Shown here one piece after another: positions 31,066-55,354 of a stretch of 64,000 bases of DNA. The DNA lies in contig NZ_JARXIA010000005.1 in the NCBI RefSeq assembly GCF_031127875.1, positions 186,001-250,000 of the forward strand. Direction: 5' to 3'. The stretch's first letter is position 1, and every line of letters starts with the position of its first letter. Below the pieces are notes generated by a model, which saw nothing but the letters and a program-made list of their open reading frames with translations, did no database searches and was not told the origin of the DNA. The position numbers and the translations under genes were made by a program. The DNA comes from Pelagicoccus sp. SDUM812005 (lineage in GTDB: Bacteria > Verrucomicrobiota > Verrucomicrobiia > Opitutales > Opitutaceae).

Positions 31066-31343
31066 GCCACCCCTAAACCAAGCTGACGTTCAGGGATTTC
31101 CCAGCGGACGACACGGAGGTCGACCCTCCAAAGTTATTTGCGCTGGAGGGACCGGTTCCCCCCAGCCCGCGTTGCAAGATCCGATCCGCGTCACTGCCTG
31201 AACTCGTGGACAATAGTTTTGCGGCCCTCCGCGCAAAAAACACGAAATAGACTTTTTGCCCAGATTGTGTGCGATTCGACCTAGCCTCGGGTATTGTAAC
31301 GCAAACACACCTTCCAACTCCCCGACCACTTGCTACGAGTTCC
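31066..31343. other. Non-coding stretch before the sigma-factor gene
   Basis: With the htpG terminator this leaves about 360 bases without a gene between htpG and the sigma-factor gene. Minus-strand open frames exist, but are Ser/Arg-rich and featureless. The near-palindrome gggaccggttccc at about 31149-31161 is the only local symmetry noticed. The promoter of the sigma gene must lie here; I cannot place it with confidence. Confidence 0.4.
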
Positions 31344-32636
31344 ATGGCTCTCCAATTAGAATCCGATTCCGCCCTGCTCGATCGCTTCCATTCCCAGGCG
31401 GACGAACCTGCCTTCACTCTACTCGTTGAACGTCACCTTCGAGTCGTGTTCGCAGTCGCCCAAAATCGACTCGGCGGCGATACTCAACTCGCGGAAGACG
31501 TCTGCCAAATCGTCTTCTCCCAGCTCGCCCGCAATGCCAAAAGCCTGAGGCACCATAGCAACATCAAGGCTTGGCTCTTTAAAACCAGCCGTTTCACAGC
31601 CTCAAAGTTAGTCCGGGCTCGAGTTCGCCAGAAAACGAGAGAACAAGATTATGAATACGTGCGCGATCTCCCAAACCCCAAAGAGAAAGAAAGCCTAACG
31701 CAATTTATCGACGAATTGATCGAACAGCTCCCCTCATCAGACCAAGAAGTGCTGCTCCTTCGCTACTTCGAATCAATGGACTACAAGACCATCGGAACTC
31801 GTCTGAGCATAAAGCCTAACACCGCTCGCATGAGAGCCGAACGGGCCCTAGTCAAGCTGCAAGCTCGCTTCAAAAAGAGAGGCATCGCAACCGGAACGGC
31901 GTTGAGTGCCGCCCTAAACGCCTATGCAAGCTGCTCCCTTCCTGCTCATCTAGCGACAAGCGTAACAAACGTAACCCTGGCAAGCCTAGGAAGTCTTGCG
32001 AGCATTGGACTCGTATCCGCCCTTAAACTACCATTGGCAGCTAGCTTAGCCATACTCCTCACCGGTGTCGCAATCGAGCGCCAAAACACTAGCGCGGCCA
32101 TGGATTCAAATGTAGCCATAGAACAACCGCCTCGCGCCCATGCGGAGCAAGCAGTATCCCCGCCTTCCGCTCGTTCAAATTCAAGTGCCCTCGACAATAT
32201 AGATCTCGCCTACGCCGCGCTAGACAAAGATGCAACCGTACTCGCGCAACGCCTTGAGGCAATAGAGTCCGCTATTCAGAAACTGCACAACAGAAGGCCA
32301 GCACCGGAAAAGATCTATAGTCTAAGTGAATTGGATACGAAACCTCGAGCATCCGCAATGATGATGCCCGAGTACCCGATTAGTCACCTGGTAACCAAGG
32401 AAGAAGGCAGGGCTGTCGTGGAATTCGTCCTCGGAACTGATGGTAAGACTAGCGACCTCCGGGTCGTCAAAGCATCTCACCCAGACTTCGGGAAAAACGC
32501 CCTAGAGGCCGTTTCAAAAAGTGAATTCACTCCAGGAAGAATCGGCGCGACTGCCGTTCAATCCCGCGTACGAATTCCGATCATGTTCACTCCCTCGCCA
32601 ACAGAGGACCAAGCTGAAACCCAAAACTGGTTCTGA
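31344..32636 (+). CDS. ECF-type sigma factor fused to a membrane helix and a TonB C-terminal domain
   Basis: 430 residues from ATG 31344. Region sigma-2 is at about 25-90 (QLAEDVCQIVFSQLAR, NIKAWLFKTSRF) and sigma-4 at about 125-172, with the helix-turn-helix DYKTIGTRLSIKPNTARMRA. A hydrophobic stretch at about 209-245 follows (SLGSLASIGLVSALKL then PLAASLAILLTGVA), then a Ser/Ala/Pro-rich linker, a short coiled coil, and at about 341-415 a TonB-type C-terminal domain (PEYPISHLVTKEEGRAVVEF, then SEFTPGRIGA and VRIPIMF). If the hydrophobic part spans the membrane, the sigma domains are cytoplasmic and the TonB domain periplasmic. No anti-sigma gene is adjacent; a membrane protein gene starts at the very next base. 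Confidence 0.8.
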   Translation: MALQLESDSALLDRFHSQADEPAFTLLVERHLRVVFAVAQNRLGGDTQLAEDVCQIVFSQLARNAKSLRHHSNIKAWLFKTSRFTASKLVRARVRQKTREQDYEYVRDLPNPKEKESLTQFIDELIEQLPSSDQEVLLLRYFESMDYKTIGTRLSIKPNTARMRAERALVKLQARFKKRGIATGTALSAALNAYASCSLPAHLATSVTNVTLASLGSLASIGLVSALKLPLAASLAILLTGVAIERQNTSAAMDSNVAIEQPPRAHAEQAVSPPSARSNSSALDNIDLAYAALDKDATVLAQRLEAIESAIQKLHNRRPAPEKIYSLSELDTKPRASAMMMPEYPISHLVTKEEGRAVVEFVLGTDGKTSDLRVVKASHPDFGKNALEAVSKSEFTPGRIGATAVQSRVRIPIMFTPSPTEDQAETQNWF

Positions 32637-33416
32637 ATGATCTCTCCTCGTATCGCTAAAGCCTTTTGGCTTTTACCCATTTTCGTAGCGACCATCCTCG
32701 TGATGCGAATCGTCGATACCTCGAACCCTCAAGAAATCGAGGCGGATGAATCGCTCCTCTCTATCCCTACGCATCAACCAGCGGCCGGCCTTCTCCAACA
32801 AACAAACGCGGATGGAGCCCTTCAGTCACTACGCGCCGAGATCGAAGAACTCGAACGACGCATCGAGAAACGCGAGCAAGCCTTAGCCCAACGCAAAAAG
32901 GAGCAACAATACACGGATGCCGCCTCGATCAGCCACTCCGGCCTTACCCCCGAACAATGGGCAAAGAAGGGCTATGGCACTCCTTACGAAAGCGTGGAAA
33001 CGCTCATCTATTCCGCTGCCAGCGGAGACCTCGAAGCGATGAAAACCTCGCTCGTCTTTTCCCCCGACTCCGAGGCCTTGGCGAAACGTTTGTTCGAAAG
33101 CCTCCCTCCGTCTGTCCGCGAAGAGCAAGGGTCTTTCGAATCAATAACGGCCATGATGACCATCGACCAAGTTCCCCTCGCTAAAGCTCGGGTACATGCA
33201 TTTAAGGAAATCTCCGAGGACGCACGGGAGGTGTTCATTGTATTTACCTCAAACCTGGAGTCTCCCAAATCCATCAAACTCGACTTGATTCAATTGCCCG
33301 ACGAGACCTGGAAAGTGCTTGTCCCTCCCCAAGCGCTTTATGCTTACGCAGACAAACTGGGGATCGAACTCGAAACAACCAACTCAGAGACAGCGCATCT
33401 CGTACCTAAGGACTGA
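32637..33416 (+). CDS. Membrane-anchored coiled-coil protein paired with the sigma fusion
   Basis: 259 residues whose ATG directly abuts the stop of the sigma gene, so the two are surely cotranscribed. It has an N-terminal membrane anchor at about 8-25, a coiled coil at about 60-92 (LRAEIEELERRIEKRE) and a C-terminal alpha/beta domain starting with WAKKGYGTPYESVETLIY (about 108-125). I recall similar W-x-x-x-G-x-x-TP-E-S-x-E-T-x-x-x-A-x-x-GD segments in proteins next to ECF sigma factors of Verrucomicrobia, but no function. It may sense or hold the sigma protein on the periplasmic side; it does not look like a classical ZAS anti-sigma factor. Confidence 0.75.
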   Translation: MISPRIAKAFWLLPIFVATILVMRIVDTSNPQEIEADESLLSIPTHQPAAGLLQQTNADGALQSLRAEIEELERRIEKREQALAQRKKEQQYTDAASISHSGLTPEQWAKKGYGTPYESVETLIYSAASGDLEAMKTSLVFSPDSEALAKRLFESLPPSVREEQGSFESITAMMTIDQVPLAKARVHAFKEISEDAREVFIVFTSNLESPKSIKLDLIQLPDETWKVLVPPQALYAYADKLGIELETTNSETAHLVPKD

Positions 33417-33437: not shown

Positions 33438-33474
33438 AAAAAGCCCTTACCTGAAATAACATCAGGTAAGGGCC
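33438..33474 (-). terminator. Terminator of grpE-dnaJ (minus strand)
   Basis: A perfect 12-bp stem (gcccttacctga / tcaggtaagggc) with a 7-base loop. On the minus strand it runs into six T, so it ends the dnaJ transcript; on the plus strand the T-run is absent. Confidence 0.88.
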
Positions 33475-33494
33475 TAGAAATCTATCAGACGATT

Positions 33495-37850: not shown

Positions 37851-38131
37851 GATAAAAGGTGGTTTAGCTCAAAACCAAAGCCCCGCCCTCACCGCAAAAC
37901 AAGCAGTAAATCCCTCCAGACCAACAAAGTCCCAACAAGCTGCCCACATTCTCAATTTCGCTCGCGTCTTTCTCGAGAATCCCCATCCCAGCCCCCTTCC
38001 AGCCAATCCAACGGATGCTCCGCCTTGCGAAGAGTTTAATTGCAAAGCCGAACCAATCCCATCTTCTCGACTCTATTAAACAAGACTAGCGCCAGCCTTC
38101 GGCCCGACACTATCCTCCCTCTTTCTTTCCA

Positions 38132-40600
38132 ATGGCGAAAAAGCGACCTTCGACCAAAGAACCCGAATCCGACATCAAGCAAGCGAGCATGAAAAGCCGC
38201 TTCATCTGGGCTGGCCTGTGCTTCCTCATCGCCGTGCTGCTCGCCCTCGCCCTCGGAGACTACACCCCCTACCAAGTCTCCATCGGACGCTCCGTCGGCT
38301 CCACCAACCCGAACGAAAACAACATGGTCGGCATCCTCGGAGCCGAAGCTTCCGAGCTACTCATCGCCGCCTTCGGACGCATGTCCTGGTTCGTCCCGCT
38401 CTTCGTCGGCTGGCTGGGCGGCGCCTTCCTGGCCCGCGACCGCCGCAACAAACTCATCCTCTCCGGCGTCATGCTGGTGGCCATGATCACCGGCTCCGGC
38501 CTCTTCACCGCCACCGGCACCACCTTCGCGAACCCCGAAGTCTACGTCACCGGCGCCGGCGGAGCCGTGGGCAACCTGCTTTACAACAACCTCCTGCACG
38601 TCTACCTCGGCACCGTCGGCTCCGCCGTCATCCTCGGAGCCATCTACCTGGCTTGCCTGACCATGATCGTCTTCCCGAGCCTGCCGGAATCGGGCGAATT
38701 CTTCCGCCACTCCTTCGCCGAATGGCGCGAACGCCGAGCCGCCGCCGCAGAGGAACGCCGCGAAGCCAAACGCCTCGCCAAGCTAGCCGCCCAAGAGGAA
38801 AAGCAACGCCTCAAGGAAGAGAAGGCCGAAGCCAAGCGCCTCGCCCAAGAGGAAAAGGAAGCCACCAAGGCCCTCATCCGCGAAGCCAAGGGCAAGAGGG
38901 CAGCCGAACCGGAAATCGATCCGGAACCCAAGATCAAAGTCAACATTCCGAGCCGCAAGAAAGCCGCCCCAGCTCCCGAGCCCGAAGAAGAGGAACCCAA
39001 GAAAAAAACCTTGGGCGAAGTCCTCAAGATCGTCGCCCCCGAAAAGACCAAGAAAGCCCGCACCGCCACCCTGCCCGTGGCCTCCGGCAACTACACCTTC
39101 CCCAAGCTCGACCTGCTCGCCGAACTGGAAGCCCCAGACGGCGCCAATTCGGAAGAGGAGCACACCGAAAACGCGGAACGCCTCAAGCAGACCCTCAAGG
39201 AATTCGGGGTCGACGTCACCATGGGCGAAATCCACATCGGCCCCGTCATCACCCGCTATGAGGTCTACCCGGCGCCCGGCGTGCGCGTGGAGAAAATTTC
39301 CAACCTGGACAAGAACATCGCCCTTGGCATGCGGGCCGTCTCCGTCCGTATCCTCGCCCCCGTACCCGGCAAGGGCTGCGTTGGCATCGAAGTGCCGAAC
39401 CAAGTCCCCATGCCGGTCGGCATCCGCGAAATCCTCGAGTCCGAGGACTGGGTCAAATCCAAGGCGGAAATCCCCATCGCCCTCGGTCGCGACGTTTCCG
39501 GCAAGCCGATCATCTCCGACCTTACCAAGATGCCTCACCTCCTCATCGCGGGTGCCACCGGCGCGGGTAAGACGGTCTGCATCAACGCCATCATCACCTC
39601 CCTGCTCTTCCACTCCAGCCCCGAGAACCTCCGCTTCATCATGGTCGACCCTAAGATCGTGGAAATGAAGGTCTTCAACTCCCTCCCGCACATGCTCATT
39701 CCGGTCGTCACCGACCCGAAAAAAGTGCCGGGCGCCCTCAAGTGGCTGCTCAACGAGATGGAATCCCGCTACGAAATGTTCGCCAAGGTCGGCGTGCGCA
39801 ACATCGCCGGCTTCAACGGCCGCAAGAAGCCGGAAAAGGAAAAGACCGAAGACGAAAAGTTCGAAGAGCAAATCCAGGAGGAGCTGGAAATCCGTGTCCC
39901 CCGCGACGAAGGCGTGCTGGACGAAATCCCCGAAAAGCTCCCCTACATCGTCTGCATCGTGGACGAGCTGGCCGACCTCATGATGGTCGCCCCCGCCGAC
40001 ATCGAAACCGGCATCGCCCGCCTCGCCCAGCTGGCCCGCGCCGCCGGCATCCACCTCGTGCTCGCCACCCAGCGCCCCTCCGTCAACGTCATCACCGGCG
40101 TCATCAAGGCCAACTTGCCCTGCCGTATCTCCTTCCAGGTTTCTTCCAAGATCGACTCCCGCACCATCCTCGACGGCGGTGGAGCGGAACAGCTTATCGG
40201 CCGCGGCGACATGCTATTCTCCCCTCCCGGCTCCTCCCGCCTCGTACGTTCCCAAGGCGCCTTCGTCTCCGACGAGGAGATCGCCGACATCGTGGAATTC
40301 CTCAAGGCCAACGGCCCGCCCAAGTTCGCCGAAGAAGTGCAGAAACAAATCGAAGCTGGCGACGAAATGGATCTCGGCGGCGGCGGTGAAGGCGGCGAAG
40401 ACGGCGACGAACTCTTCAACAAAGCCATCGACGTGCTTCGCTCCACCAAGCGCGCTTCCACCTCCATGCTCCAGCGCCGCCTGCGGATCGGCTACAACCG
40501 TGCCGCCAACCTCATGGACCAACTGGAAGACCGCGGCATCGTCGGCCCCGAAAACGGCTCCAGCCCCCGCGAAATCCTCGTCGACCTCGACTCGATGTAA
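38132..40600 (+). CDS. ftsK: DNA translocase FtsK/SpoIIIE
   Basis: 822 residues. Four or so N-terminal membrane helices (about 29-190), a charged Lys/Glu/Ala-rich linker (200-310), the alpha/beta motor with Walker A GATGAGKT at 474-481 and Walker B CIVDELADLMM near 610, the ATQRPSVNVITG motif, and a C-terminal gamma winged-helix domain (STSMLQRRLRIGYNRAANL) that reads KOPS-like DNA polarity signals. It pumps chromosomal DNA at the septum and activates XerCD. The motor contains a charged insertion (KPEKEKTEDEKFEEQ near 570) seen in several other bacterial phyla. Confidence 0.96.
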   Translation: MAKKRPSTKEPESDIKQASMKSRFIWAGLCFLIAVLLALALGDYTPYQVSIGRSVGSTNPNENNMVGILGAEASELLIAAFGRMSWFVPLFVGWLGGAFLARDRRNKLILSGVMLVAMITGSGLFTATGTTFANPEVYVTGAGGAVGNLLYNNLLHVYLGTVGSAVILGAIYLACLTMIVFPSLPESGEFFRHSFAEWRERRAAAAEERREAKRLAKLAAQEEKQRLKEEKAEAKRLAQEEKEATKALIREAKGKRAAEPEIDPEPKIKVNIPSRKKAAPAPEPEEEEPKKKTLGEVLKIVAPEKTKKARTATLPVASGNYTFPKLDLLAELEAPDGANSEEEHTENAERLKQTLKEFGVDVTMGEIHIGPVITRYEVYPAPGVRVEKISNLDKNIALGMRAVSVRILAPVPGKGCVGIEVPNQVPMPVGIREILESEDWVKSKAEIPIALGRDVSGKPIISDLTKMPHLLIAGATGAGKTVCINAIITSLLFHSSPENLRFIMVDPKIVEMKVFNSLPHMLIPVVTDPKKVPGALKWLLNEMESRYEMFAKVGVRNIAGFNGRKKPEKEKTEDEKFEEQIQEELEIRVPRDEGVLDEIPEKLPYIVCIVDELADLMMVAPADIETGIARLAQLARAAGIHLVLATQRPSVNVITGVIKANLPCRISFQVSSKIDSRTILDGGGAEQLIGRGDMLFSPPGSSRLVRSQGAFVSDEEIADIVEFLKANGPPKFAEEVQKQIEAGDEMDLGGGGEGGEDGDELFNKAIDVLRSTKRASTSMLQRRLRIGYNRAANLMDQLEDRGIVGPENGSSPREILVDLDSM

Positions 40601-40609
40601 GGAACGACA

Positions 40610-40642
40610 CGTATTTCTGTCAGAGCCGTCGACAGAAATACG
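40610..40642 (+). terminator. Long hairpin just after ftsK, possible terminator
   Basis: A perfect 12-bp stem (cgtatttctgtc / gacagaaatacg) with a 9-base loop starts nine bases after the ftsK stop. It lacks a downstream T-run and is AT-rich, so it may be a mRNA 3'-end stabiliser instead of a true intrinsic terminator. Confidence 0.45.
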
Positions 40643-40825
40643 GGACCTCACTTAATCGATTTAAACCCCTTATAATAAACAACCTACAACAGAACACAAG
40701 TAATGACCTCTAGGATCCGTCAGCTACGCTTACACTTCCACGACAAGGTCAGAAAGAACCCAAAACAACACAACCTACTGTAGATAAACACCTTAAAACA
40801 AAACTAAACAAGAGTCGCCCCCTGA

Positions 40826-40841
40826 TGGCGCAGAGCCTGCA
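40826..40841 (+). promoter_or_regulatory. Candidate sigma-54 promoter of the second sorting-tagged gene
   Basis: TGGCGCAGAGCCTGCA matches the -24/-12 consensus at TGGC, the second C, and TGCA, with correct GG-to-GC spacing. It ends 51 bases before the ATG at 40893. A related site precedes the sorting-tagged gene at 5079. Confidence 0.58.
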
Positions 40842-40892
40842 ACTACGAACTGTCTCTAATCCAATCACCATCATACCTTATATTTTCGACTC

Positions 40893-41468
40893 ATGAAAAA
40901 AACTATCATCACCCTCTTCGCAGCTCTGACTGCGACGGTCGCGGCCAACGCGATTGCGATAAATATCGATGATCGCTTAGTAGGAATCTACGGCAGAGAA
41001 TACGACACAAGGGCCATTCCCAACGGTCATAAGGTCAAGGCAACCGGTAACGAACACTTGGACGAGCTGGTAACCATGCTTGGACTTTACAATACGACCA
41101 GCACTCAGATTGGCTATAGCATCGGAACTTTGGCGAGCGGTTCTGCAGTTCCAGCGCCTCTCCTTCCGGTTCCCACCACCCATTTCCTGCAAGCCAGCAG
41201 CGGCCCTGGAACTCCCACCCTCACTACCGTCCTTCCCAACATCGGCTCCCTCTATCTCGGCCTCAAGTCGGCGAACGAAGTAGCATTCTACTATCTCGGC
41301 GGCCTCTCAGCAGGGACTGAAATCACCGTAACGAACGCAAATGATTCCAAGGACATCTCCAACTGGTCCTACTACGGAACAGCTCTAGTCCCCGATTCCG
41401 GCACAACCCTCGCTCTCCTCGGAGCAGCTCTCTTCGGACTCATCGGCTTCCGTCGCTTCAAGAAGTAA
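40893..41468 (+). CDS. Secreted protein with VPDSG-type C-terminal sorting tail
   Basis: 191 residues: Sec signal peptide (KKTIITLFAALTATVAA, cleavage near ANA), a beta-rich body without enzymatic motifs, and the tail VPDSGTTLALL, a hydrophobic helix and RRFKK, a textbook VPDSG-CTERM signal. Exosortase processing at the inner membrane and delivery to the surface are expected. The body is unrelated to that of the first sorting-tagged protein at 5079-5609, but the promoter type is shared. It is monocistronic, with a terminator at 41495-41521. Confidence 0.88.
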   Translation: MKKTIITLFAALTATVAANAIAINIDDRLVGIYGREYDTRAIPNGHKVKATGNEHLDELVTMLGLYNTTSTQIGYSIGTLASGSAVPAPLLPVPTTHFLQASSGPGTPTLTTVLPNIGSLYLGLKSANEVAFYYLGGLSAGTEITVTNANDSKDISNWSYYGTALVPDSGTTLALLGAALFGLIGFRRFKK

Positions 41469-41494
41469 GCGAAGCGCAAACAAGCTTTCCAAAG

Positions 41495-41521
41495 AGCCAA
41501 GCGTCACGCTTGGCTTTTTTT
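41495..41521 (+). terminator. Terminator of the VPDSG-tagged gene
   Basis: Stem agccaagcg / cgcttggct with a 3-base loop (tca), followed by T6-7. Confidence 0.93.
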
Positions 41522-41578
41522 CGTGCGTTCGGCCTCCGCTATCCGAGGCTCCCGCCCCTCGCGAATCGCTTCCGCCTC

Positions 41579-44500
41579 TCACTCCCCTGCCGCAAAAACG
41601 TACAGCGGCCCCTCGCTGATCGCTACCAGTAATTCGCAGCGTCCATCTCCGTCGAGGTCCGACCAGACCAAGCGCCGCGCAGCGCCCTTCTCGATCGACA
41701 CCCCCGAGCGCCCGGGAAGCTCGCAGCGAAAAACTCCTTTCCCGTCGTTGATCAACAGTAGAACGAAACTCGATTCCGGAAGCACCGAGGCCACCGGCTG
41801 CGGCGAGAGCGATTGCAAAATCGCCGCCACATCGACATCACCGTCGCCATCGAAATCCGCCGCCAACAAGTCGATCGCCGTTCCCGCTTGAGCGAGCGCC
41901 GGCAGTCGCTCCCGCCGAAACCCGCCCGTCTCGTCCTGCAGCAACAAGAGCGAACGCCGCTCCGTAAATTCGTAGCGATCGTAAGCCTCCAAAACCTCCT
42001 CCCCAAACGCCTCCCCCACGCTCATCTTCGCATACTCCGCATAGGCTCCGGTCCGCTTCGCGATTTCCGGAAAATCCAACTGGTGAAAGATGCGCGACTC
42101 CCGCGGATACAAAACGCCATCGATCGCTTCCGCTTCGATGTACTTTCCCTGCACCGTCTCCTCACGCGGAGCCCACAAGACAGCCGGCGACTCCTCCGAA
42201 ACCGCATACTTGTTGTTCTCCCCCAGGTTTCCCAAAACGATATCCAGCCGGCCGTCCCCATTGAAATCCGCTACCGCGGCGCTTTTCCAAAGCCCACTCC
42301 CCACTCCCGCAAAGACCTCCGGCCACTCCCGCAATTCGTCCGCCTCCTGCTTCCCGGCCAGGGGCGAAGCATACTCCCGCAGCTGCACCACGTCACGATC
42401 CCCGTCGGCGTCCAAATCCGCCAACACCAGCCGAGCCGTACGACCGCTCTCGGCAAACGCATGCGGCAAGAGCTCCCCCTCCCTCGAGTAGACACGATTG
42501 TCATGGGCCTGCGGATACCAACCTCGAACCGTTCCGCCCGCCAAGAGCATGAGACCGTTTTCCAAACGAACCGCAGCAGACGAAGCCTCCGGCGGCGACT
42601 CAAAATCCGCTCTCTCGAACTCCAGCCCTCCCTGGTTCAAATAGAGCCGATCCGCGTAGTACTCGTCCCCCGCATCGAGCTCGACGCCGCCGCTGGACAC
42701 GAACAAGTCAAGATCGCCATCACCATCGAAATCGAAAGGAACGATCGCGGAATCCTCCGCCAGTTCGTCGTCCTCGAAAACGTCCACCGCTACAGCTCGC
42801 AAAGCCCGACCGCCCTCGTTCCTCAATAGGACCAACGCTTGACCGGTCGCACCGCCCAGCAGCACATCCTTGAAACCATCCCCGTCCAAATCCGCAAGGG
42901 CCATGGCCGGCCCCAATCGATCCTCCGTAAACGGCAACAGCGCCTGCCCGCGACGCACAAAGAAACGATCCTCCAGTCGCTCGCTTTTCGGATCCACCCA
43001 AATGTCCGATCGCTGAAAGCGCGCCTTTTCCTTCGGTCCGTTCTCCGAGCTCGCGAGAACGTCTTCCCGAACCGTATAGCGCTTCCCAAAGGCCAGCCCC
43101 TCCAAGCGCTGCCGCTTGCCCGACGGCCATTCCACCACCAGCGATTTGATCGCGTCGCCTGCAGTGGCCGCGAAGTGCAGAGTCGGATCGTCAACCGACA
43201 TGTATCCACGCATCGACGACAGCTCCCGCGTTTGCGTCCCCGAGCGGGTCTCCAGCCTCACCGTCGCCCCCAGGCCCATTCGATTGCTTTGCACTCCCTC
43301 TAAACGCAAGGCCAGCCGCTGCCCCTCCCCGCTATTGTTTCGATAAACTCCCAGCCCTTCCTTCCAATTGCTGGTAACAAGATCCAAATCGCCATCGAGG
43401 TCGAAGTCCGCAAACGCCGCCGCAAAACTAACGCCCTCCGCGGCCAGCCCCCAAGCTTCGCTTACCTCGGAAAAGCGGAAATCCCCGTCGTTGCGAAACG
43501 CCAGATTCCGCTCCCGCAGCGGCGGACTCGCCTCGAAGACCCGCACCCGCGTCGCCAAGCTCCGCGCCTTCGTCATCTGGTAGGCGAGGTCTCCGTCGTG
43601 AAACGCCCGCGTCATCCCGTTCGCAAAAAAGACGTCCAGCAGCCCATCGTTATCAAGATCCACGAAGCGAGTCGCCCAAGTCCAATCGCTCGCGTGCAAG
43701 CCGGCAAAGCGGCTCACCTCAGCAAAACGCCCATCCCCCAAGGCCGCCCAAACCATGTTCTGCATGTATTGGTTTACACCCGAACGCCGGGCCCCGATCA
43801 ACTTGCCCGAGAGCGGCCCCACCGCTCTATGATAGTACTCGCGGTCGCGAGCCAGCATCTCTGCAGCGATCAAGTCGGCATGCCCGTCGTTGTTCAAATC
43901 CCCAGCATCCACTCCCATCGAGGAATACGGAGCGCTGCCAAGCGCCTCTCGGATCACATCGCTAAACGTACCGTCCTTGTTATTCCGATACAGCTTATCG
44001 ACCGCTTCGAAGTCGTTGGAAACATAGATATCCAGCCAACCGTCTTCGTCGAAATCCCACCATAGCGCCGTATGCCCCTGCCCCTCTCCAGCGATGCCAG
44101 CCTGCTCCGTCACGTCGACGAAGCGCCCCTCGTCATTGCGAAACAACAAGTCCGGCAGCCCGTCCAAGCTCTCCGATCCATGCAGGTAGTTCTGCTGCAG
44201 ATACAAGTCCAGGTCACCATCCCGATCGTAGTCGGCAAACGACGGAGCGTTGGATCCGCCACGGTAGTCGAGCCCCCAATCCGCCGCCCGGTTCTCGAAG
44301 CGTCCGCTTCCATCGTTCACCCACAGCTCGTTAGTCCCCGACACGTAGCAAACGTAGAGATCCAAATCTCCGTCCCCATCGATATCCACCCAAGCCGCGC
44401 CCGTGCCAAAGCCCGTCCCGCCCGCCACGCCCGCCAACGCCGTCACGTCTTCGAACCGGAAATCCCCTCCATTTCGGAAAAGGCCGTTCGGCGAATCCTT

Positions 44501-44791
44501 TCCCACCGCGAACAGATCCGGCAAGCCGTCCCCATCCATGTCCCCCAAGGCTACGCCCGTTCCGATCGAGCCATTGTAGTATTGCTTCCAAAGCTCCCGC
44601 CAGCGCCGCGGATGGTCGAAGCGATTCTCGAACGCGATCCCCGTACGCTCCGTATCCATTCTTTCGAACAACGGCTGGCCCGCCCCGCCACCGCTTGCCG
44701 GCTCCAGGTCCTGCACGGACACGATTTGCCCCATCGATACGGATGGGAAGCAGGTCAAAACGCTCAGGGCTGCAATTCGCTTAAGGGGCAT
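41579..44791 (-). CDS. Large secreted FG-GAP/VCBS repeat protein with UnbV/ASPIC domain
   Basis: 1070 residues with a signal peptide (RIAALSVLTCFPSVSMG). The body is a series of FG-GAP/VCBS beta-propeller blades, each with a calcium-binding DxDxDG loop (DMDGDGLPD, DIDGDGDLD, DYDRDGDLD, DFDEDGWLD, DLNNDGHAD and others). In the middle, around residues 480-570, is the UnbV/ASPIC domain (RMGLGATVRLE, MRGYMSVDD, LVVEWPSGKRQRLEG). Proteins of this CRTAC1-like group are common in Opitutae and Bacteroidetes and are thought to act outside the cell; the substrate or partner is not known. It has no sorting tail. It is transcribed divergently from rodZ. Confidence 0.88.
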   Translation of the reverse strand: MPLKRIAALSVLTCFPSVSMGQIVSVQDLEPASGGGAGQPLFERMDTERTGIAFENRFDHPRRWRELWKQYYNGSIGTGVALGDMDGDGLPDLFAVGKDSPNGLFRNGGDFRFEDVTALAGVAGGTGFGTGAAWVDIDGDGDLDLYVCYVSGTNELWVNDGSGRFENRAADWGLDYRGGSNAPSFADYDRDGDLDLYLQQNYLHGSESLDGLPDLLFRNDEGRFVDVTEQAGIAGEGQGHTALWWDFDEDGWLDIYVSNDFEAVDKLYRNNKDGTFSDVIREALGSAPYSSMGVDAGDLNNDGHADLIAAEMLARDREYYHRAVGPLSGKLIGARRSGVNQYMQNMVWAALGDGRFAEVSRFAGLHASDWTWATRFVDLDNDGLLDVFFANGMTRAFHDGDLAYQMTKARSLATRVRVFEASPPLRERNLAFRNDGDFRFSEVSEAWGLAAEGVSFAAAFADFDLDGDLDLVTSNWKEGLGVYRNNSGEGQRLALRLEGVQSNRMGLGATVRLETRSGTQTRELSSMRGYMSVDDPTLHFAATAGDAIKSLVVEWPSGKRQRLEGLAFGKRYTVREDVLASSENGPKEKARFQRSDIWVDPKSERLEDRFFVRRGQALLPFTEDRLGPAMALADLDGDGFKDVLLGGATGQALVLLRNEGGRALRAVAVDVFEDDELAEDSAIVPFDFDGDGDLDLFVSSGGVELDAGDEYYADRLYLNQGGLEFERADFESPPEASSAAVRLENGLMLLAGGTVRGWYPQAHDNRVYSREGELLPHAFAESGRTARLVLADLDADGDRDVVQLREYASPLAGKQEADELREWPEVFAGVGSGLWKSAAVADFNGDGRLDIVLGNLGENNKYAVSEESPAVLWAPREETVQGKYIEAEAIDGVLYPRESRIFHQLDFPEIAKRTGAYAEYAKMSVGEAFGEEVLEAYDRYEFTERRSLLLLQDETGGFRRERLPALAQAGTAIDLLAADFDGDGDVDVAAILQSLSPQPVASVLPESSFVLLLINDGKGVFRCELPGRSGVSIEKGAARRLVWSDLDGDGRCELLVAISEGPLYVFAAGE

Positions 44792-44979
44792 GGGGTACGC
44801 TCGCGGAGGACAATTCGAGTGGAACCAAGCCCCGCTCCAAGGTACAACCTTTAATTGGACTCACACGAGAACAAGCCTCCCCCAGCCCTGCGCCCATTTC
44901 GCGGCTTCCGCTCGAATTATGCGCTCTCTTCACTCTGGAGGCTTGTTTTACAAAAAATTCCGTTTAAACACAGAAACTG

Positions 44980-45819
44980 ATGCAGAGTATTGGCGAAAGA
45001 CTGGAAGAAGCGCGCAAGCGCAAGGGTGTCACGATCCGCGAAGCGGCCGAAGCGACGAAGATTCGCGGTGACTACCTCAACAGTTTCGAAAACAACAACT
45101 TCCAAATCAACGTCCCCGACATCTACGTGCGCGGATTCCTGCGCTCCTACTGCAATTTCCTCAAGGTCAACAGCGAGAAGGTCATCACCGACTACAACGC
45201 TAACCTGCTCGGCGAAGCCAAGGCCGCCAAACGCGAACACCGCGAGTTCTTCGGCCGCATGGAGCTCCAGCAAACGCCCCTCGTAAACGAGGAAAGCAAA
45301 GCCGGCGCCCCCGCAACCCCCATCGACGACGACAAGCTCCGCGCCGAAGAGGAAGACGAAGACAAGATCAGCTTCCTCGACAAGATCGACAAGGAAGCCG
45401 CCATCAAGATCGGCATCGTCGCCGTGATCGCCGTCATGCTGCTGCTCGTCATCATCTGGCTCTTCCGCACGCTCACCAGCGGCGGAATCGACGACACGGT
45501 AGCCACCAACAGCACCGGCCTCGTCCCCACCCAGCAAACCACTTCCGCTCCCGCCGCCAACAGCAACAACGCCCCAGCTGCGGCTAAGGAAAAAATCGTC
45601 CTCATCGCTACTGGCGACGTCCGCGTTTCGGTCACCGAACGCAACACCGGCAAGGTCCTGCTCGACTACTTCCCCATGGTAGCCGGACAACGGGAAACCA
45701 TCGAGAAGAGCGGCCCCGTCAAAATCGACTACACCGCGGGCGAAAACCTGCAGGTCGAGGTCAAGGGTACCGCCTACGGCACCGGCAAGACCGGCCAGAA
45801 CTACTCGACTATTCCTTGA
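44980..45819 (+). CDS. RodZ-like cell-shape protein
   Basis: 279 residues with the RodZ order: an Xre-type helix-turn-helix at about 4-65 (RLEEARKRKGVTIREAAEAT, DIYVRGFLRSYCNFL), an acidic/basic linker, one membrane helix at about 142-162, and a periplasmic beta domain of the RodZ C-terminal type at about 205-275 (IVLIATGDVRVSVTE). RodZ links MreB filaments to the elongasome. The HTH lacks a recognition helix of strong DNA-binding type, as usual. Its 3' end overlaps that of the convergent gene 45809-47014 by 11 bases. Confidence 0.87.
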   Translation: MQSIGERLEEARKRKGVTIREAAEATKIRGDYLNSFENNNFQINVPDIYVRGFLRSYCNFLKVNSEKVITDYNANLLGEAKAAKREHREFFGRMELQQTPLVNEESKAGAPATPIDDDKLRAEEEDEDKISFLDKIDKEAAIKIGIVAVIAVMLLLVIIWLFRTLTSGGIDDTVATNSTGLVPTQQTTSAPAANSNNAPAAAKEKIVLIATGDVRVSVTERNTGKVLLDYFPMVAGQRETIEKSGPVKIDYTAGENLQVEVKGTAYGTGKTGQNYSTIP

Positions 45820-47014
45820 TCCCCGTCGCGATCGGTACGGTCAAGCGCTGCTCGGCCGGATAGCCCTCCACTACCGCCGGCAAGAAGACCCAGTCCTTCA
45901 CCGCCGCCAGCAACTGCTTGGCAGCCGGCGTATCGCCCCCCTCCACCATGCGGGCGTCTTGTGCGCGTCCCAGGCGATCCACCAGCAGCTCCACCCTCAG
46001 CGCCTTCGTCTTCTTCGAAAGCTCCAGCTGGGGCAACGGCGAATACAACGGACGGGCCGACCTGTCCTTCATTTCCGGATACGGGATCATCTCCAAAGCC
46101 TCCGAAAAGGGAGCGAACTCATTGAAGAAGAAGTTTTGCCGCACCGTCGTGACCAACGGCTTCCCCTTGAAGGTCCCCGCCTGGTAACGCGTTTCAACCA
46201 CCGTCTTCCATACCTCGGGTAGAAATGCGGCATGGTCCGCGGAAAAATCGATGATCTCGATCACGCGCCCATCCTGGCCGATCGAATAGATCGCCGACGC
46301 ATAACCGCCGCCCACCTTTCCTTGCAGCGACTTCGGAAAGTCCAACAAGCGGGCCTTCACCACCTTGGCTGGTTCCACCTCGCCATCGACCGATGACGCC
46401 CGTCGGGCAGCCGGTCGAGCGGAAGTCGAACCGCCGCCCCTCATTTCGTCCACCACGATAGGATCGTCCGGTTCGTAGCGCCGGATCTCCTGTCCCTTCG
46501 AAAAGACGCGATAGCCAAAGGAGCCGCCTCCGAAGCCCGCATTCACCGGCAAGGTTATCGAAATCCGCTCCGCCCCTGTGGTGTTGATATCCGAAATCTC
46601 CCGCAGTAGGTACGTGTTCTCGCCCTGCTCCGGCGCGATGATGAAAAGGATAAAGCAGTCCTCGAAATCGCGCTCCGCCTGCACCGTCGCCACGAAGCGA
46701 AAATAGAAGCCACCCAAGGGCGAACCGTAATCCTGCCCCATGATAGCGTTGCGCTCGATCACCTCGATCGCCCCGTCCGTAAACTCGTTCGCGTCCACCA
46801 CCCGCACGTACGCATCCGGCACCAGCATGCGCTCGCCCTGCACTTCCACCACCGGCGTCGATCCGCTCATCGCCACCACCGGCAGCATCTCGTCCTCGTA
46901 CGAAACCAAAACCTGCGTCTGCGAAAAGCCCCACGAAACCGCGCCCAAGCCCATCGCCACCGCCGCCCACCAACGCCTCGCTTCGCCCATTCGATTTCCC
47001 GATAAATATTTCAT
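45809..47014 (-). CDS. Secreted protein with two TonB C-terminal-like domains
   Basis: 401 residues with a signal peptide (WWAAVAMGLGAVSWGFS). The first 200 residues are beta-rich with no known motif. Two tandem domains follow that resemble the TonB C-terminal fold: about 225-300 (GGYASAIYSIGQDGRVIEI ... ETRYQAGTFKGKPL) and about 330-398 (ALRVELLVDRLGRAQDARMV ... DWVFLPAVVEGYP). Each has the beta-strand, D/G-R-V, helix, F/Y-x-P/A-G pattern. It lacks the N-terminal helix of a true TonB, so it is probably a periplasmic protein. The last codons overlap the end of rodZ on the other strand. Confidence 0.68.
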   Translation of the reverse strand: MKYLSGNRMGEARRWWAAVAMGLGAVSWGFSQTQVLVSYEDEMLPVVAMSGSTPVVEVQGERMLVPDAYVRVVDANEFTDGAIEVIERNAIMGQDYGSPLGGFYFRFVATVQAERDFEDCFILFIIAPEQGENTYLLREISDINTTGAERISITLPVNAGFGGGSFGYRVFSKGQEIRRYEPDDPIVVDEMRGGGSTSARPAARRASSVDGEVEPAKVVKARLLDFPKSLQGKVGGGYASAIYSIGQDGRVIEIIDFSADHAAFLPEVWKTVVETRYQAGTFKGKPLVTTVRQNFFFNEFAPFSEALEMIPYPEMKDRSARPLYSPLPQLELSKKTKALRVELLVDRLGRAQDARMVEGGDTPAAKQLLAAVKDWVFLPAVVEGYPAEQRLTVPIATGIKE

Positions 47015-47178
47015 CCTTTCAATAGCCAGAGAATCGTAAAACTATCACCGCCCCGCTTCGCTCGCAAGCGACAGCTACACAATTCCCTCAGCGAAATCTC
47101 CCTCAAAGGGCAAGCCACTCCCGGCGGCCTCCTTTTTGGTTTGAACCCCCGCCTCCCTCGCCCTAAACACCGCCCACC

Positions 47179-47625
47179 ATGAGCAAACTCACCGTTGCAA
47201 TCGGCTCCGACCACGCCGGCTATAATTACAAGCAAGCCATCATCGCCCACCTCGAGGGCCAAGGCTACTCCGTCAAGGACTACGGAACGAACTCCACGGA
47301 ATCCTGCGACTACCCCGACTTCATCCGCCCCGTCGCCGAAGCTGTCGCCGCCGGCGAATACGACCGCGGCATCGTGCTCGGAGGCTCCGGCAACGGCGAA
47401 GCCATCGTAGCGAACCGCGTCAAAGGCGTGCGCTGCGGACTCTGCTGGAACGAGCAGATCGCCATCTGGAACCGCTCCCACAACGACGGAAACGTCCTCT
47501 CCATCGGCGAACGCACCGTCAACCAAGAAGACGCCCTCAACATCGTGGACACCTGGCTCAACACCGAGTTCGAAGGCGGACGCCACCAGCCTCGCATCGA
47601 CAAGATCGACAACCCTTCCCGCTAG
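47179..47625 (+). CDS. rpiB: Ribose-5-phosphate isomerase B
   Basis: 148 residues of the RpiB/LacAB fold, interconverting ribose-5-phosphate and ribulose-5-phosphate in the pentose phosphate pathway. SDHAGYNYK (about 10-18) binds the phosphate, and GGSGNGEAIVANR (about 68-80) is the Glu-type active site known from Mycobacterium RpiB (E74 in place of the Cys of E. coli). The HNDGNVLSIGER motif is present. The aldo-keto reductase gene follows by 48 bases. Confidence 0.93.
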   Translation: MSKLTVAIGSDHAGYNYKQAIIAHLEGQGYSVKDYGTNSTESCDYPDFIRPVAEAVAAGEYDRGIVLGGSGNGEAIVANRVKGVRCGLCWNEQIAIWNRSHNDGNVLSIGERTVNQEDALNIVDTWLNTEFEGGRHQPRIDKIDNPSR

Positions 47626-47673
47626 TCGCCCCTCCCAAGAGCCAGCGCCTAGCGCCCAGCCCACCCCGAGTTC

Positions 47674-48657
47674 ATGCAATACCGTCGCCTCGGCAAATCC
47701 GGCCTTCAAGTCAGCGCCCTCTCCTTCGGGTCCTGGGTCACCTTCGGAGACCAAGCCTCCAACCGGACCGCCGAAGCCTGCCTGCAACTCGCCTACGACT
47801 CCGGCGTCAACTTCTTCGACAACGCTGAAGGCTACGCCAACGGCCAGTCCGAAGAAGTCATGGGCTCCGCCCTCGCCAAGGCCGGCTGGGCCCGCGACAC
47901 CTTCGTCGTCTCTTCCAAAGTATTCTGGGGCGGCGACAAGCCCAACCAGATCGGCCTCTCCAAGAAGCACGTCATCGAAGCCTGCGAAGCCGCCCTCAAG
48001 CGCCTGCGCGTCGACTACCTCGACCTCTACTACTGCCACCGCCCCGATCCCGACACCCCCATCGAGGAAACCGTCCGCGCCATGGACGTGCTCATCCAGC
48101 AAGGCAAGATCCTCTACTGGGGCACCTCCGAATGGTCCGCCGCCGAGATCATGGAAGCCTACTCCATCGCCCGCCAGTACCACCTGACGCCCCCCACTAT
48201 GGAGCAGCCCGAGTACAACCTCCTCAAGCGCCACCGCTTCGAGGTCGAGTACGCCCGCCTCTTCTCCCAAATCGGACTCGGAGCCACCACCTTCTCCCCC
48301 CTCGCCAGCGGCATCCTCACCGGCAAGTACAACGATGGCATCCCTGAAGACAGCCGACTTGCCCACACCCAATTCGATTGGATGCAAGAAAAGCTCGCCC
48401 GCCTGCGAGCCCAAGGCGGCATCCAGATCCTGCAAGAGCTCACCGCCATCGCCCAAAAGCTCGGAGCCACCCTGCCCCAGCTCAGCATCGCCTGGCTCCT
48501 CAAGAACCCCAACGTCAGCTCCGTCATCCTGGGCGCCTCCCGCCCCGAGCAATTGGAACAAAACCTCAAGGCCCTGGACATTCTCGATACTCTCAATGAC
48601 GAGATCATGGATGAAATCGAAATCGCCATCAGCCGCTTCCAAGAAATCGACGCGTAA
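47674..48657 (+). CDS. Aldo/keto reductase (potassium-channel beta-subunit type)
   Basis: 327 residues, NADPH-dependent TIM-barrel oxidoreductase. The catalytic tetrad is visible: D49 and Y54 in FFDNAEGYANG, K82 in VVSSKVFWGG, H122 in LYYCHRPD. The C-terminal VILGASRPEQLEQNL motif binds NADPH. The sequence WGTSEWSAAEI and the LLKRHRFEVEY segment group it with the YghZ/Kv-beta branch, which reduces small aldehydes such as methylglyoxal. It forms a short operon with rpiB and perhaps with the overlapping lipoprotein gene. Confidence 0.93.
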   Translation: MQYRRLGKSGLQVSALSFGSWVTFGDQASNRTAEACLQLAYDSGVNFFDNAEGYANGQSEEVMGSALAKAGWARDTFVVSSKVFWGGDKPNQIGLSKKHVIEACEAALKRLRVDYLDLYYCHRPDPDTPIEETVRAMDVLIQQGKILYWGTSEWSAAEIMEAYSIARQYHLTPPTMEQPEYNLLKRHRFEVEYARLFSQIGLGATTFSPLASGILTGKYNDGIPEDSRLAHTQFDWMQEKLARLRAQGGIQILQELTAIAQKLGATLPQLSIAWLLKNPNVSSVILGASRPEQLEQNLKALDILDTLNDEIMDEIEIAISRFQEIDA

Positions 48658-49192
48658 GACGCCTCCCGTAGCGCTGAGCTTCAGCCAGCGACCGCAGTGC
48701 AGGAGCACGCAAACGAAAGCTCCGCGCTACGCAGCGAGCCTCGCTGCCCTGCCGCTGCTAGCCGCTGCGCTCCTCGCCTTCAGCAGCTGCGCCACCGCCC
48801 CGGCATCCTCCCAGGTCGAAGTCACCGCTCCCAGCGCAATCACTCCCGCCATCCCGCCCGCAGGCGAGCCGCATACCCGGTCCATCACGGTTCAGACGCC
48901 CACTCCCGGCTGGACGCTCGTCCCCATGATGCTCTACCGCAGCGGCGAAAACCGGTACCTCTGCATCCACAGCCTAAGCGCCCCGCAAGGCATGGTCGCC
49001 CAAATGCTGTCTACCGCGTCCACCCAGTTGACCTTCCGCCACGACGGCTCCGCAGAGCCCAGCATCCGCCACTACGTTCTCGGCAAAACCTGGAATTGGA
49101 ACGGCAATCCCGAGCTCACCTTCATCGATTCGCTCGACCAGATCAAAGATGCCCTTGCCGACGCCCGAAGCGTCCCTTTCACTACGCCCTAA
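48611..49192 (+). CDS. Putative lipoprotein, start uncertain
   Basis: The frame gives a clear lipoprotein signal (LAALPLLAAALLAFSSC at 48737-48790), followed by a Pro/Thr-rich linker and a domain of about 100 residues with TVQTPTPGWTLVP, MLYRSGENRYLCIHSLS and VLGKTWNWNG. No ATG, GTG or TTG lies close before the signal; the nearest is ATG 48611, which overlaps the reductase gene by 47 bases and adds about 40 Ser/Lys-rich residues. An unusual CTG start near 48677 is an alternative. No family is recognised. Confidence 0.5.
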   Translation: MKSKSPSAASKKSTRKTPPVALSFSQRPQCRSTQTKAPRYAASLAALPLLAAALLAFSSCATAPASSQVEVTAPSAITPAIPPAGEPHTRSITVQTPTPGWTLVPMMLYRSGENRYLCIHSLSAPQGMVAQMLSTASTQLTFRHDGSAEPSIRHYVLGKTWNWNGNPELTFIDSLDQIKDALADARSVPFTTP

Positions 49193-49250
49193 ATTACCGG
49201 AGTTCCGCTCCCCATTCACTTTTTCACTACTCACCACTCACTCCTTTTTA

Positions 49251-51308: not shown

Positions 51309-51320
51309 GGATTCCCTTCT

Positions 51321-51419
51321 CCCGCAGATAACGAAGATTCTCGCAGATGAAACCTTCAGATACCGAAACCTTCCGCCTTATCACCCAATCCATCTGAGTT
51401 CATCCGCGCAATCTGCGGG
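51321..51419. repeat. Imperfect inverted repeat with CGCAGAT units
   Basis: Two arms, 51321-51350 and 51390-51419, form an imperfect inverted repeat. The outer 9 bp (CCCGCAGAT / ATCTGCGGG) are perfect, and inner parts repeat GCAGATGA / CATCTGA. It sits between the E1 gene and kdsC. I recall similar dispersed CGCAGAT-type intergenic repeats in other bacterial genomes; only one copy is seen in this window. Confidence 0.55.
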
Positions 51420-51433
51420 CAAAAAAAACACAA

Positions 51434-51937
51434 ATGCCATCCAACTCATCCCACTCCCTAGACTGGTCCGCCATCAAAGTCTTCGCCATGGACGTCGACG
51501 GCATCCTCACCGACGGCACCATCTACACCCACTCCGACGGCACCGAAGCCAAGCGCTTCTCTATTATAGACGGTCTCGGCCTCGCTCGCCTGCGCGACGC
51601 CGGCATCATCCTAGCCTGGATCTCCGGCCGCCACTCCGAATCCACCACCGTACGGGCCAAGGAACTCAAGATCCCCCACCTCGTGCAAGGCAAGCTCGAC
51701 AAAGTCACCGGCCTCAAGGACCTGCTCGCCGAATTGGAACTAGAGCCCCATCAAGCCGTCTACATGGGCGACGACGTCATCGACGTCGACGCCATCAAAT
51801 ACGCCGGCATCGGAGTCACCGTCCCGGAAGCCCAAGAAGAAGCCCTCGCCGCCGCCGACTACGTCACCACTAAAACCGGCGGCAACGGCGCCGTGCGCGA
51901 AGTCTGCAACCACATCTACAAAGCCCTTTCCCGATAA
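51434..51937 (+). CDS. kdsC: 3-deoxy-D-manno-octulosonate 8-phosphate phosphatase
   Basis: 167 residues, a cap-less HAD phosphatase that makes free Kdo for lipopolysaccharide. HAD motifs: D20 and D22 in VFAMDVDGILTDG, ISGRHSES (motif II), KLDKVTGL with the motif III lysine, and MGDDVIDVDAI (motif IV). The length is typical of KdsC. It heads the run kdsC-lptC-lptA-lptB-hprK, an order close to the one in Enterobacteria; the next ATG is one base after its stop. Confidence 0.93.
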   Translation: MPSNSSHSLDWSAIKVFAMDVDGILTDGTIYTHSDGTEAKRFSIIDGLGLARLRDAGIILAWISGRHSESTTVRAKELKIPHLVQGKLDKVTGLKDLLAELELEPHQAVYMGDDVIDVDAIKYAGIGVTVPEAQEEALAAADYVTTKTGGNGAVREVCNHIYKALSR

Positions 51938-51938
51938 A

Positions 51939-52379
51939 ATGCTACGCGTCACCAAAAACCGAATACTCGCGATCGCCGCCGTAGCAGCCACCTTGGCCGC
52001 CTACGGCCAGCTCCGCCCGGATACCGCCATCGAAGGCTTCCGCATCCCCCTCTTCGACGAAACCGGCTACCGCACCTGGCAGCTGCGCGGCGACCTCGCC
52101 ACCTACCAGAGCGAAACCCAGATCAAGATCAACGGCATGCATGTGAGCCAATTCGTGGCCGACGAAGAAAACCGCGAGATCGCCAAGCTCACCAGCCCGG
52201 AAGCCGTCTTCCACTTCGACACCACCACCGCCTACGGCCCAGGAGAGCTGCACGTCGAAACCAAGTCCTTCGAGATCACCGGCTTCGACTGGATCTGGCT
52301 CGGCGAGAAAAAGCAAATCACCTTCAACGACACCGTTAAAGTCACCCTCTACGAACAAATCGGAGACATCCTAAAATGA
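51939..52379 (+). CDS. lptC: LptC-like lipopolysaccharide export protein
   Basis: 146 residues: an N-terminal hydrophobic anchor or signal (NRILAIAAVAATLAAYG), then a small beta-jellyroll of the LptC type (AIEGFRIPLFDETGYRTWQL, then LRGDLATYQSE, ending with the GELHVETKSFEITGF strand). LptC sits on the LptBFG complex and passes lipopolysaccharide to LptA. Sequence similarity within this family is low, so the call leans on size, fold pattern and the gene order. The stop overlaps the lptA start (ATGA). Confidence 0.8.
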   Translation: MLRVTKNRILAIAAVAATLAAYGQLRPDTAIEGFRIPLFDETGYRTWQLRGDLATYQSETQIKINGMHVSQFVADEENREIAKLTSPEAVFHFDTTTAYGPGELHVETKSFEITGFDWIWLGEKKQITFNDTVKVTLYEQIGDILK

Positions 52380-53829: not shown

Positions 53830-53897
53830 CGCGAAACAACGGAGGGCCGATCGCCCGGCCGTTCACCATCCACTCCACACAACACTCTTCCTTCCCC

Positions 53898-54860: not shown

Positions 54861-54920
54861 TCCCGCCCCAGATTAGCCCGCCTTAAAAAAAACTTCCGCG
54901 GCAGGCCGAAAAGCCGCCGA

Positions 54921-54936
54921 AAAACGGGCCCGTTTT
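54921..54936. repeat. Perfect 16-bp palindrome AAAACGGGCCCGTTTT
   Basis: It lies 60 bases after hprK and is followed 3 bases on by TTTTT. It may be a protein-binding site or the remnant of a bidirectional terminator; a loop-free stem would not fold efficiently. Confidence 0.5.
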
Positions 54937-55025
54937 AACATTTTTGTAACCAACGAAACGCCGCCAACTCCCGTGCCTCTGGGCTTCGCCCACAGTTCGC
55001 CAACGCCCGAAAAAGCAATAAAAAG

Positions 55026-55034
55026 TTATCCTCA
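55026..55034 (+). promoter_or_regulatory. DnaA-box-like site (one mismatch)
   Basis: TTATCCTCA differs from TTATCCACA at one position. The following tgttaacaacttgt is of the AT-rich type often found near origins. Confidence 0.4.
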
Positions 55035-55332: not shown

Positions 55333-55354
55333 CCGCCTGCTTTAACGTAAACCC

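Follow-up and report, generated by a model that had tools for sequence, protein, structure and literature searches.

Positions 31,344 to 33,416 of a 64,000-nucleotide stretch of Pelagicoccus sp. SDUM812005 DNA (contig NZ_JARXIA010000005.1, positions 186,001 to 250,000; the whole stretch is called the window) hold two abutting plus-strand genes. The first encodes a single chain, hereafter the fusion, in which an extracytoplasmic function (ECF) sigma factor is joined through a hydrophobic segment and a long helix to a TonB-type C-terminal domain (TonB_C). The second encodes a smaller protein, hereafter the partner. The assembled genome around the window comprises 6.65 Mb in 118 contigs, and the gene pair is flanked by what we take, by eye, to be htpG (plus strand) and dnaJ (minus strand). 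The features of the locus are as follows.

31268..31297, plus strand: promoter-like element TGTGCG-N17-GTATTG, predicted to be an autoregulatory ECF promoter (upstream conservation, genome scans)
31344..32636, plus strand: fusion gene, 430 amino acids; ECF sigma factor, hydrophobic segment, long helix, TonB_C, Trp-Phe tail (open frame, Pfam, NCBIfam, alignment A1)
31422..31628, plus strand: sigma-70 region 2, residues 27-95 (PF04542, E 1.1e-9)
31707..31859, plus strand: sigma-70 region 4, residues 122-172 (PF08281, Sigma70_r4_2, E 1.4e-11)
32004..32093, plus strand: hydrophobic segment; best window residues 221-239, predicted helix 229-250, nearly invariant Lys 228 (hydropathy, AlphaFold, alignment A1)
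32172..32291, plus strand: long helix, probable coiled coil, residues 277-316 (AlphaFold model)
32367..32591, plus strand: TonB_C domain, residues 342-416 (PF03544, E 4e-14; 1u07; Foldseek 6i97_D)
32628..32633, plus strand: C-terminal Trp-Phe tail (Trp-Phe ends 37 of 56 non-identical fusions)
32637..33416, plus strand: partner gene, 259 amino acids, starting directly after the TGA (42 of 54 resolvable fusions are followed by a full-length homologue)
32661..32717, plus strand: partner N-terminal hydrophobic stretch, residues 9-27 (hydropathy 1.97; helix 13-27 in the model)
32799..32906, plus strand: partner long helix, probable coiled coil, residues 55-90 (structure model)
32958..33359, plus strand: partner NTF2-like domain, residues ~108-241 (structure model, Foldseek)

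The fusion gene is one open frame, running from the ATG at 31344 to the TGA at 32634-32636 with no internal stops, and its domains were recovered by two profile libraries. Both sigma regions scored above the curated cut-offs in Pfam, as a group 4 (ECF) sigma factor does, and NCBIfam returned sigma70-ECF (TIGR02937, E 2.5e-21) and tonB_Cterm (E 7.5e-11), the former also above its cut-off. The PF03544 match scored 53.3 bits against a gathering cut-off of 24.6 and was accompanied by a TonB-like fold, and the sigma part of an AlphaFold model of the fusion and partner joined as one chain had AlgU and sigma-E as its top structural matches in Foldseek. A first-pass annotation, made by a model from the letters alone, had placed sigma regions 2 and 4, a hydrophobic stretch and a TonB-type domain on one protein and had named a frameshift between two genes as grounds for abandoning this view. 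No frameshift is present, and the sigma/membrane/TonB_C architecture of the intact chain is confirmed. A longer, GTG-started frame from 31269 is unlikely to be used; its start would fall within the promoter-like element. The sigma and TonB_C models were matched by all 14 members of alignment A1, which were chosen as full-length matches and thus demonstrate that intact homologues exist but say nothing about their frequency.

The architecture recurs. With 10 candidates scored per genome and the sigma half checked in fetched loci, at least 55 of 252 genomes of the family in the Genome Taxonomy Database (GTDB) have a match that begins in the membrane region, at or below model position 18, and extends into TonB_C, to position 209 or beyond; in two of these genomes, G183 and G249, it lies at a contig edge. 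Among 387 genomes across the phylum, with six candidates scored per genome, 11 matched at E ≤1e-45, all in the same family. At least four of the eight genomes of the genus carry the fusion (G000, G279, G281 and G284), and no second full-length copy was found in the window's own genome. Homologues are 27-65% identical; the best 80 matches in named contigs included fusions from Pelagicoccus, Opitutaceae, Opitutia, Opitutae, Oleiharenicola, Verrucomicrobiae and Verrucomicrobia, and the closest named relative among the matches listed is from Pelagicoccus sp. SDUM812002 (L064, 65% identical). For the counts below, we compared 57 fusions with 73 related sigma factors without TonB_C, leaving out sigma matches that started after model position 40 or ended before 150, frames cut at a 3' contig end, and identical sequences. 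One fusion, L012, is a partial copy of L024; it was left out of tail counts (n=56) and kept where n=57.

A strongly hydrophobic segment follows the sigma regions. By hydropathy, the transmembrane check proposed for residues 205-250 of the window protein gave a single stretch of 19 residues scoring 1.6 or more (residues 221-239, mean 2.08), with residues 180-215 reaching only 1.42; helix 229-250 of the AlphaFold model has a predicted local distance difference test score (pLDDT) below 50, and Lys 228 is kept in at least 90% of alignment A1. At least one such stretch lies behind the sigma factor in 55 of 56 fusions and in 66 of 73 related non-fusions. The sigma factor is therefore probably moored at the inner membrane, as the first-pass annotation had proposed.

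The partner begins at the ATG at 32637, which abuts the TGA of the fusion gene, and its recurrence downstream of most resolvable fusions bears out the proposal of a coupled membrane partner. The earlier description of this protein as a membrane-anchored coiled-coil protein was right about the hydrophobic stretch and the probable coil but missed the NTF2-like domain, a fold that is also that of SnoaL-like domains. Residues 101-250 of the partner were modeled with ten-residue block means of pLDDT of 83-98, and the best Foldseek match, the only one at E ≤0.001, was the NTF2-like protein 3k7c_A (E 4.5e-4, target TM score 0.62); many of the weaker matches were likewise NTF2-like or ketosteroid-isomerase-like. 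By sequence, the partner had no match above cut-off in Pfam or NCBIfam, a search of the Protein Data Bank with its profile returned nothing at E <0.03, and weak Pfam matches of individual partners were treated as noise. A profile of its membrane-plus-coil part was matched by 48 of the 57 fusion proteins themselves at E 0.01. When the partner alone was searched in 87 genomes of the order, two matched, a frequency that carries little weight with a single diverged sequence as the query. Alignment A5, which joins the two proteins, was built with trimmed partner rows; its predecessor A4 had laid the partner coils onto the sigma coil.

The partner appears to be matched to the last two residues of the fusion. 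First, twelve different residues precede the Trp-Phe of the 37 fusions that end in it, and the dipeptide lies 2-25 residues beyond the end of the TonB_C profile. Second, a full-length partner follows 36 of these 37 genes, the other being cut by a contig end, whereas the 19 remaining fusions comprise six with a full partner, nine with a short membrane-plus-coil protein, three with none and one that is unresolvable. Full partners thus accompany 36/36 resolvable Trp-Phe fusions but 6/18 of the others (Fisher p 5e-8 at 90% clustering). Third, Trp-Phe ends only two of the 73 relatives without TonB_C (L089 and L094), and both have a full partner; among the other 71, five have a full partner, two a short one and 49 none, and 15 are unresolvable. 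In comparisons of independent pairs on a tree, too few for significance, tail and partner differed in the same direction in 3.3 pairs on average, in opposite directions in 0 and without a difference in 1.7, although the tree is weakly supported (24 of 127 inner branches starred). Frames of at least 90 residues that end in Trp-Phe but have no sigma match numbered six in the fetched loci; two derive from fusions, one split (L119) and one cut by a contig end (L167), and the others look like chance frames.

The region just upstream of these genes is conserved as well. The general element is TGTGCG-N16/17-GTRYTA or a variant; the consensus reads TGTGCG[A/G]TT, 10-11 bases, CGGGT[A/G][C/T]TA, and a variant form combines TGTTCGGTTT with GCCTGCTA. 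Upstream counts cover 118 of the 130 sigma factors (sigmas of one locus shared a key), 117 of them with enough upstream sequence. TGT[GT]CG is present in the zone immediately ahead of the start codon in 87 of these 117 family members and in one of 117 in an equal control zone further up. A fuller pattern is present in 45 of 118 (21 of 38 Trp-Phe fusions, 8 of 18 other fusions, 16 of 60 non-fusions and 0 of 2 Trp-Phe non-fusions), and variants are therefore common; the window's own element departs from the fuller pattern at its last base. In most of the 45 matched genes (for example L023, L021 and L110) ~7-18 bases lie between the end of the predicted -10 element and the start codon, and near-leaderless mRNAs of these sigma genes are possible.

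Genome scans suggest that this promoter-like element is likely to be private to the fusion operon and autoregulatory. GTGCGRTT-N9..12-CGGGTRY occurs once in the whole genome, at the fusion; within the window it occurs once, compared with 0 in 100 shuffles. A scan of 20 genomes gave one site in each of 11, and all 11 lie just upstream of a fusion by coordinates, which we compared by hand. Nine genomes had no site: G103, G280, G282 and G283 have no listed fusion, and G000, G281, G151, G101 and G107 bear fusions with promoter variants. Another pattern, also in 20 genomes, gave 15 sites in 14 genomes, 14 of them just upstream of a fusion; the six genomes without a site (G013, G098, G101, G105, G113 and G118) have fusions with upstream variants, apart from G118, where nothing was recognized. 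With a loose pattern in eight genomes of the genus, the four carriers had three sites elsewhere than at the fusion and the four other genomes also had three; the backwards control gave four in carriers and two in the others. A search of the window's own genome with up to three mismatches gave one second site, inside a HAD hydrolase-like frame, which is about the chance expectation (~1.3 by estimate). No target beyond the fusion was seen in genome scans with these patterns; any further target genes would have to be read from promoters of a different kind.

Control of ECF sigma factors is typically the task of separate anti-sigma proteins, and an autoregulated promoter ahead of the sigma gene is a frequent but not a universal trait of the group. 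Among the closest likenesses to the fusion that we found is IutY of Pseudomonas putida (group ECF243), a sigma/anti-sigma fusion of cell-surface signaling that is reported to be activated by Prc and RseP (PMC5411451, PMC8999054). In both proteins an ECF sigma factor and a periplasmic domain would share one membrane-bound chain, the side of the membrane being a prediction for ours. In IutY the periplasmic domain is of the anti-sigma type and the receptor is known; the fusion has TonB_C, ends in most cases in Trp-Phe, and is accompanied by a membrane partner with an NTF2-like domain. No FecR-type anti-sigma domain was found in 14 fusions, where only sigma and TonB_C models match at E 0.001. Actinobacterial ECF48, ECF52 and ECF53 also carry a membrane-spanning C-terminal extension, described in a review of ECF sigma factors as having one or two membrane helices and an expected proteolytic release (PMC8999054), but there the extension is of the zinc-finger anti-sigma type and here it is TonB_C. 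In ECF41 and other ECFs a SnoaL-like extension governs the sigma factor by direct contact, according to the same review (PMC8999054). That domain sits on the sigma factor, after region 4; in the window, the NTF2-like domain is on the partner instead, predicted to lie beyond the membrane, and it is matched in the C-terminal part of the sigma factor itself in 9 of 130 sigma relatives. Compared with other proteins with a TonB C-terminal domain, the fusion shares the canonical fold but has a sigma factor as its N-terminal part and no proline-rich spacer. A search of the open literature, judged by titles and abstract openings, gave no description of the sigma-TonB_C architecture or its parts. The review counts at least 26 ECF groups with regulatory extensions, 15 of them still to be studied, and the words TonB and Verrucomicrobi- are absent from its main text (PMC8999054).

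We propose that the fusion is a self-activating, membrane-tethered ECF sigma module in which the outer part of the chain and the partner together form the sensor, and we give this tentative reading a probability of roughly 0.45. The sigma half would act in the cytoplasm, as its function implies, held at the inner membrane by the predicted membrane segment. Given a single pass, the coil, the TonB_C domain and the free Trp-Phe C terminus are predicted to be periplasmic. The partner would stand beside the fusion by means of a similar membrane segment and coil, and its NTF2-like domain, as the co-occurrence suggests, may read or mask the Trp-Phe tail. A signal from the envelope, received at the head made up of TonB_C and the partner and perhaps arriving by way of a TonB_C-like lipoprotein, could free or reorient the sigma factor, most likely through stepwise proteolysis of the Prc/RseP type as in IutY; RseP-type and Prc-type homologues above cut-off in the window's own genome are consistent with proteolytic release. 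The freed sigma factor would then transcribe its own operon from the 31268-31297 element, as the upstream sequence suggests, and the response would therefore be self-amplifying.

A probable sensor, a tether and a sigma factor would thus lie on one chain with one partner, and the two-residue signature is easy to mutate. Recurrence over the family, together with the other C-terminal domains of related sigma factors, makes it a compact system for testing how signals from the envelope get to RNA polymerase. The proposal makes three sharp and cheap predictions: a private promoter, a tail-partner match and release from the membrane. The fusion is real, conserved and not ordinary among membrane-tethered ECF sigma factors. 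The first-pass interpretation as a whole is partly supported; it had been made without the promoter-like element, the Trp-Phe tail and the NTF2-like domain of the partner, and what is new here is that element, the match between tail and partner, and a divergent TonB_C protein near some fusions.

Several observations weigh against this proposal. The topology is unsettled: of 56 fusions, 26 have one hydrophobic window and one has none, but 29 have more than one (24 with two, 5 with three), and two true passes would place TonB_C in the cytoplasm. We prefer a single pass, the periplasm being where a TonB_C domain and an NTF2-like partner would make sense; our confidence in a tethered module is lowered because the number of windows differs among fusions. 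The association of tail with partner is entangled with descent: its Fisher p weakens to 0.006 at 60% and 0.25 at 45% clustering, and supported branches yield five independent pairs, too few for significance. Six fusions without Trp-Phe keep a full partner (L019, L026, L029, L072, L116 and L159), and L015, L138 and L197 have no partner, a looser search giving a 100-amino-acid frame for L138. The AlphaFold model of the joined chain leaves the tail undocked and disordered (pLDDT <50 at residues 423-437; predicted TM score 0.41), although such a model is a weak docking test in which the join adds residues after the tail. Finally, an autoregulon of one operon gives no evident physiological output.

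There is a stricter version, which we regard as unlikely: a closed two-gene envelope sensor whose regulon is itself, whose promoter occurs once in the genome, whose product is both regulator and effector, and whose NTF2-like co-receptor recognizes a C-terminal Trp-Phe. If true, an envelope protein would transcribe its own gene; a one-operon autoregulon, if true, would contrast strikingly with the view of ECF sigma factors as serving wider regulons.

The first-pass annotation had put forward the TonB domain as a possible sensor of a transporter in the outer membrane. In this alternative, TonB_C would contact TonB-dependent transporters there, and their transport activity or occupancy would act directly on the sigma factor, either pulling on it or releasing it. 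The fold is suggestive: the domain matched E. coli TonB 1u07 by sequence (E 9.5e-4) and, in Foldseek, TonB from the FoxA complex (6i97_D, target TM score 0.84, root-mean-square deviation 1.7) and from the BtuB complex (2gsk_B, 0.82). Pro 342, Pro 345, Gly 367, Phe 395 and Pro 397 are invariant in 14 aligned fusions, and the spacer, 67-111 residues long, could span a considerable distance. That spacer, however, is not proline-rich, averaging 4% proline over 57 fusions compared with 19-20% in two TonB-like proteins of the window's own genome, and the short cytoplasmic N terminus of an energy-transducing TonB is replaced by a sigma factor. Related sigma factors, moreover, bear NTF2-like, NHL or carboxypeptidase-regulatory domains in place of TonB_C, and 12 of 57 fusions have a divergent TonB_C protein close by. 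Transporter sensing is thus not supported so far, although no search aimed at receptor genes was made among the frames mapped near 20 loci, and we consider it doubtful. A membrane histidine, absent from the hydrophobic window of 55 of 57 fusions, was rejected as a test for an energized TonB; the genome's two TonB-like proteins lack it too. These two stand-alone proteins with proline-rich spacers (L061 and L002) lie in the first 10 kb of contig G000:C31, close to a possible ExbB frame for which three membrane segments are predicted.

The divergent TonB_C protein belongs to a family of its own and lies within 1.6 kb of at least 12 of 57 fusions (L012 counted; many loci had a 1.5-kb flank), namely L022, L026, L029, L075, L078, L103, L110, L150, L154, L158, L165 and L201. 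It is near two of 73 non-fusions, one beside a fusion (L058) and the other a split fusion (L119). These proteins are probably lipoproteins, because a lipobox pattern is present in 6 of 14 TonB_C frames listed near fusions and a cysteine ends the hydrophobic N-terminal stretch in ten aligned members. TonB_C may pair with TonB_C in these loci. No divergent TonB_C protein was found in our own locus, a search that covered the window.

The Trp-Phe tail could instead be a PDZ ligand that recruits or activates a protease of the DegS/AlgW or Prc type, with the partner merely shielding the tail, in the manner of RseB/MucB. Known ligands of PDZ-type proteases want an aromatic residue at -2, whereas the Trp here is at -1, and the tail tracks the partner, as a general protease ligand would have no need to do. 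On the other side, Trp-Phe is kept at the very end of the chain despite the variable distance from TonB_C, and Prc and RseP homologues are encoded in the genome. There is also a parallel in the MucE-AlgW-MucA system of P. aeruginosa, where MucE ending in WVF is reported to activate AlgW, possibly through its PDZ domain, so that a C-terminal aromatic-Phe signal in the envelope is linked to sigma activation (PMC3819740). That signal is on a separate small protein and its target is an anti-sigma factor. We find this alternative unlikely as an account of the tail.

It is rather improbable that the sigma factor is active while still tethered, without proteolysis. Membrane regulators of the ToxR/CadC type do act in this way, a lone target right in front of the sigma gene itself could be served from a fixed position, and no cleavage site was recognized, although none was specifically tested for. 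A sigma factor must, however, move with the RNA polymerase core into initiation, and the precedent IutY is reported to be cut by Prc and RseP (PMC5411451). A degenerate or chance origin of the fusion, with parts that have no function together, is very hard to credit: domains do shuffle in this group (at least 16 changes of TonB_C state on the weakly supported tree), but the fusion is present in at least 55 of 252 family genomes, and homologues as divergent as 27-65% identity largely keep promoter element, tail and partner.

The relatives without TonB_C suggest that the fusion probably belongs to a larger family of tethered sigma factors with differing C-terminal domains. Pfam searches of ten related sigma factors gave NHL repeats in L093, carboxypeptidase-regulatory repeats in L125 and L135, and no further domain above cut-off in the other seven; the three repeat proteins, up to 1119 amino acids long, have one or two hydrophobic stretches before the repeats. 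On one contig of G107 (G107:C102:39702-78210; L058 covers 38000-56000) at least ten family members are listed within 39 kb, some with partners, both with and without TonB_C. In a metagenome-assembled genome of Candidatus Synoicihabitans palmerolidicus (L119) the fusion is split between two frames, one of 303 amino acids with the sigma part and another with TonB_C and a terminal Trp-Phe, either by assembly error or by decay.

There is no general third gene after the partner across the loci: the frames that follow it are related in L103, L165 and L201, where they belong to divergent TonB_C proteins, are a further sigma gene in L058, L076 and L154, and are related to one another in L021, L164 and L171. 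A terminator directly after the operon was considered and rejected; the good hairpin with a T-run found there, at window positions 33441-33475, is on the minus strand and is likely to be the terminator of the convergent dnaJ-like gene.

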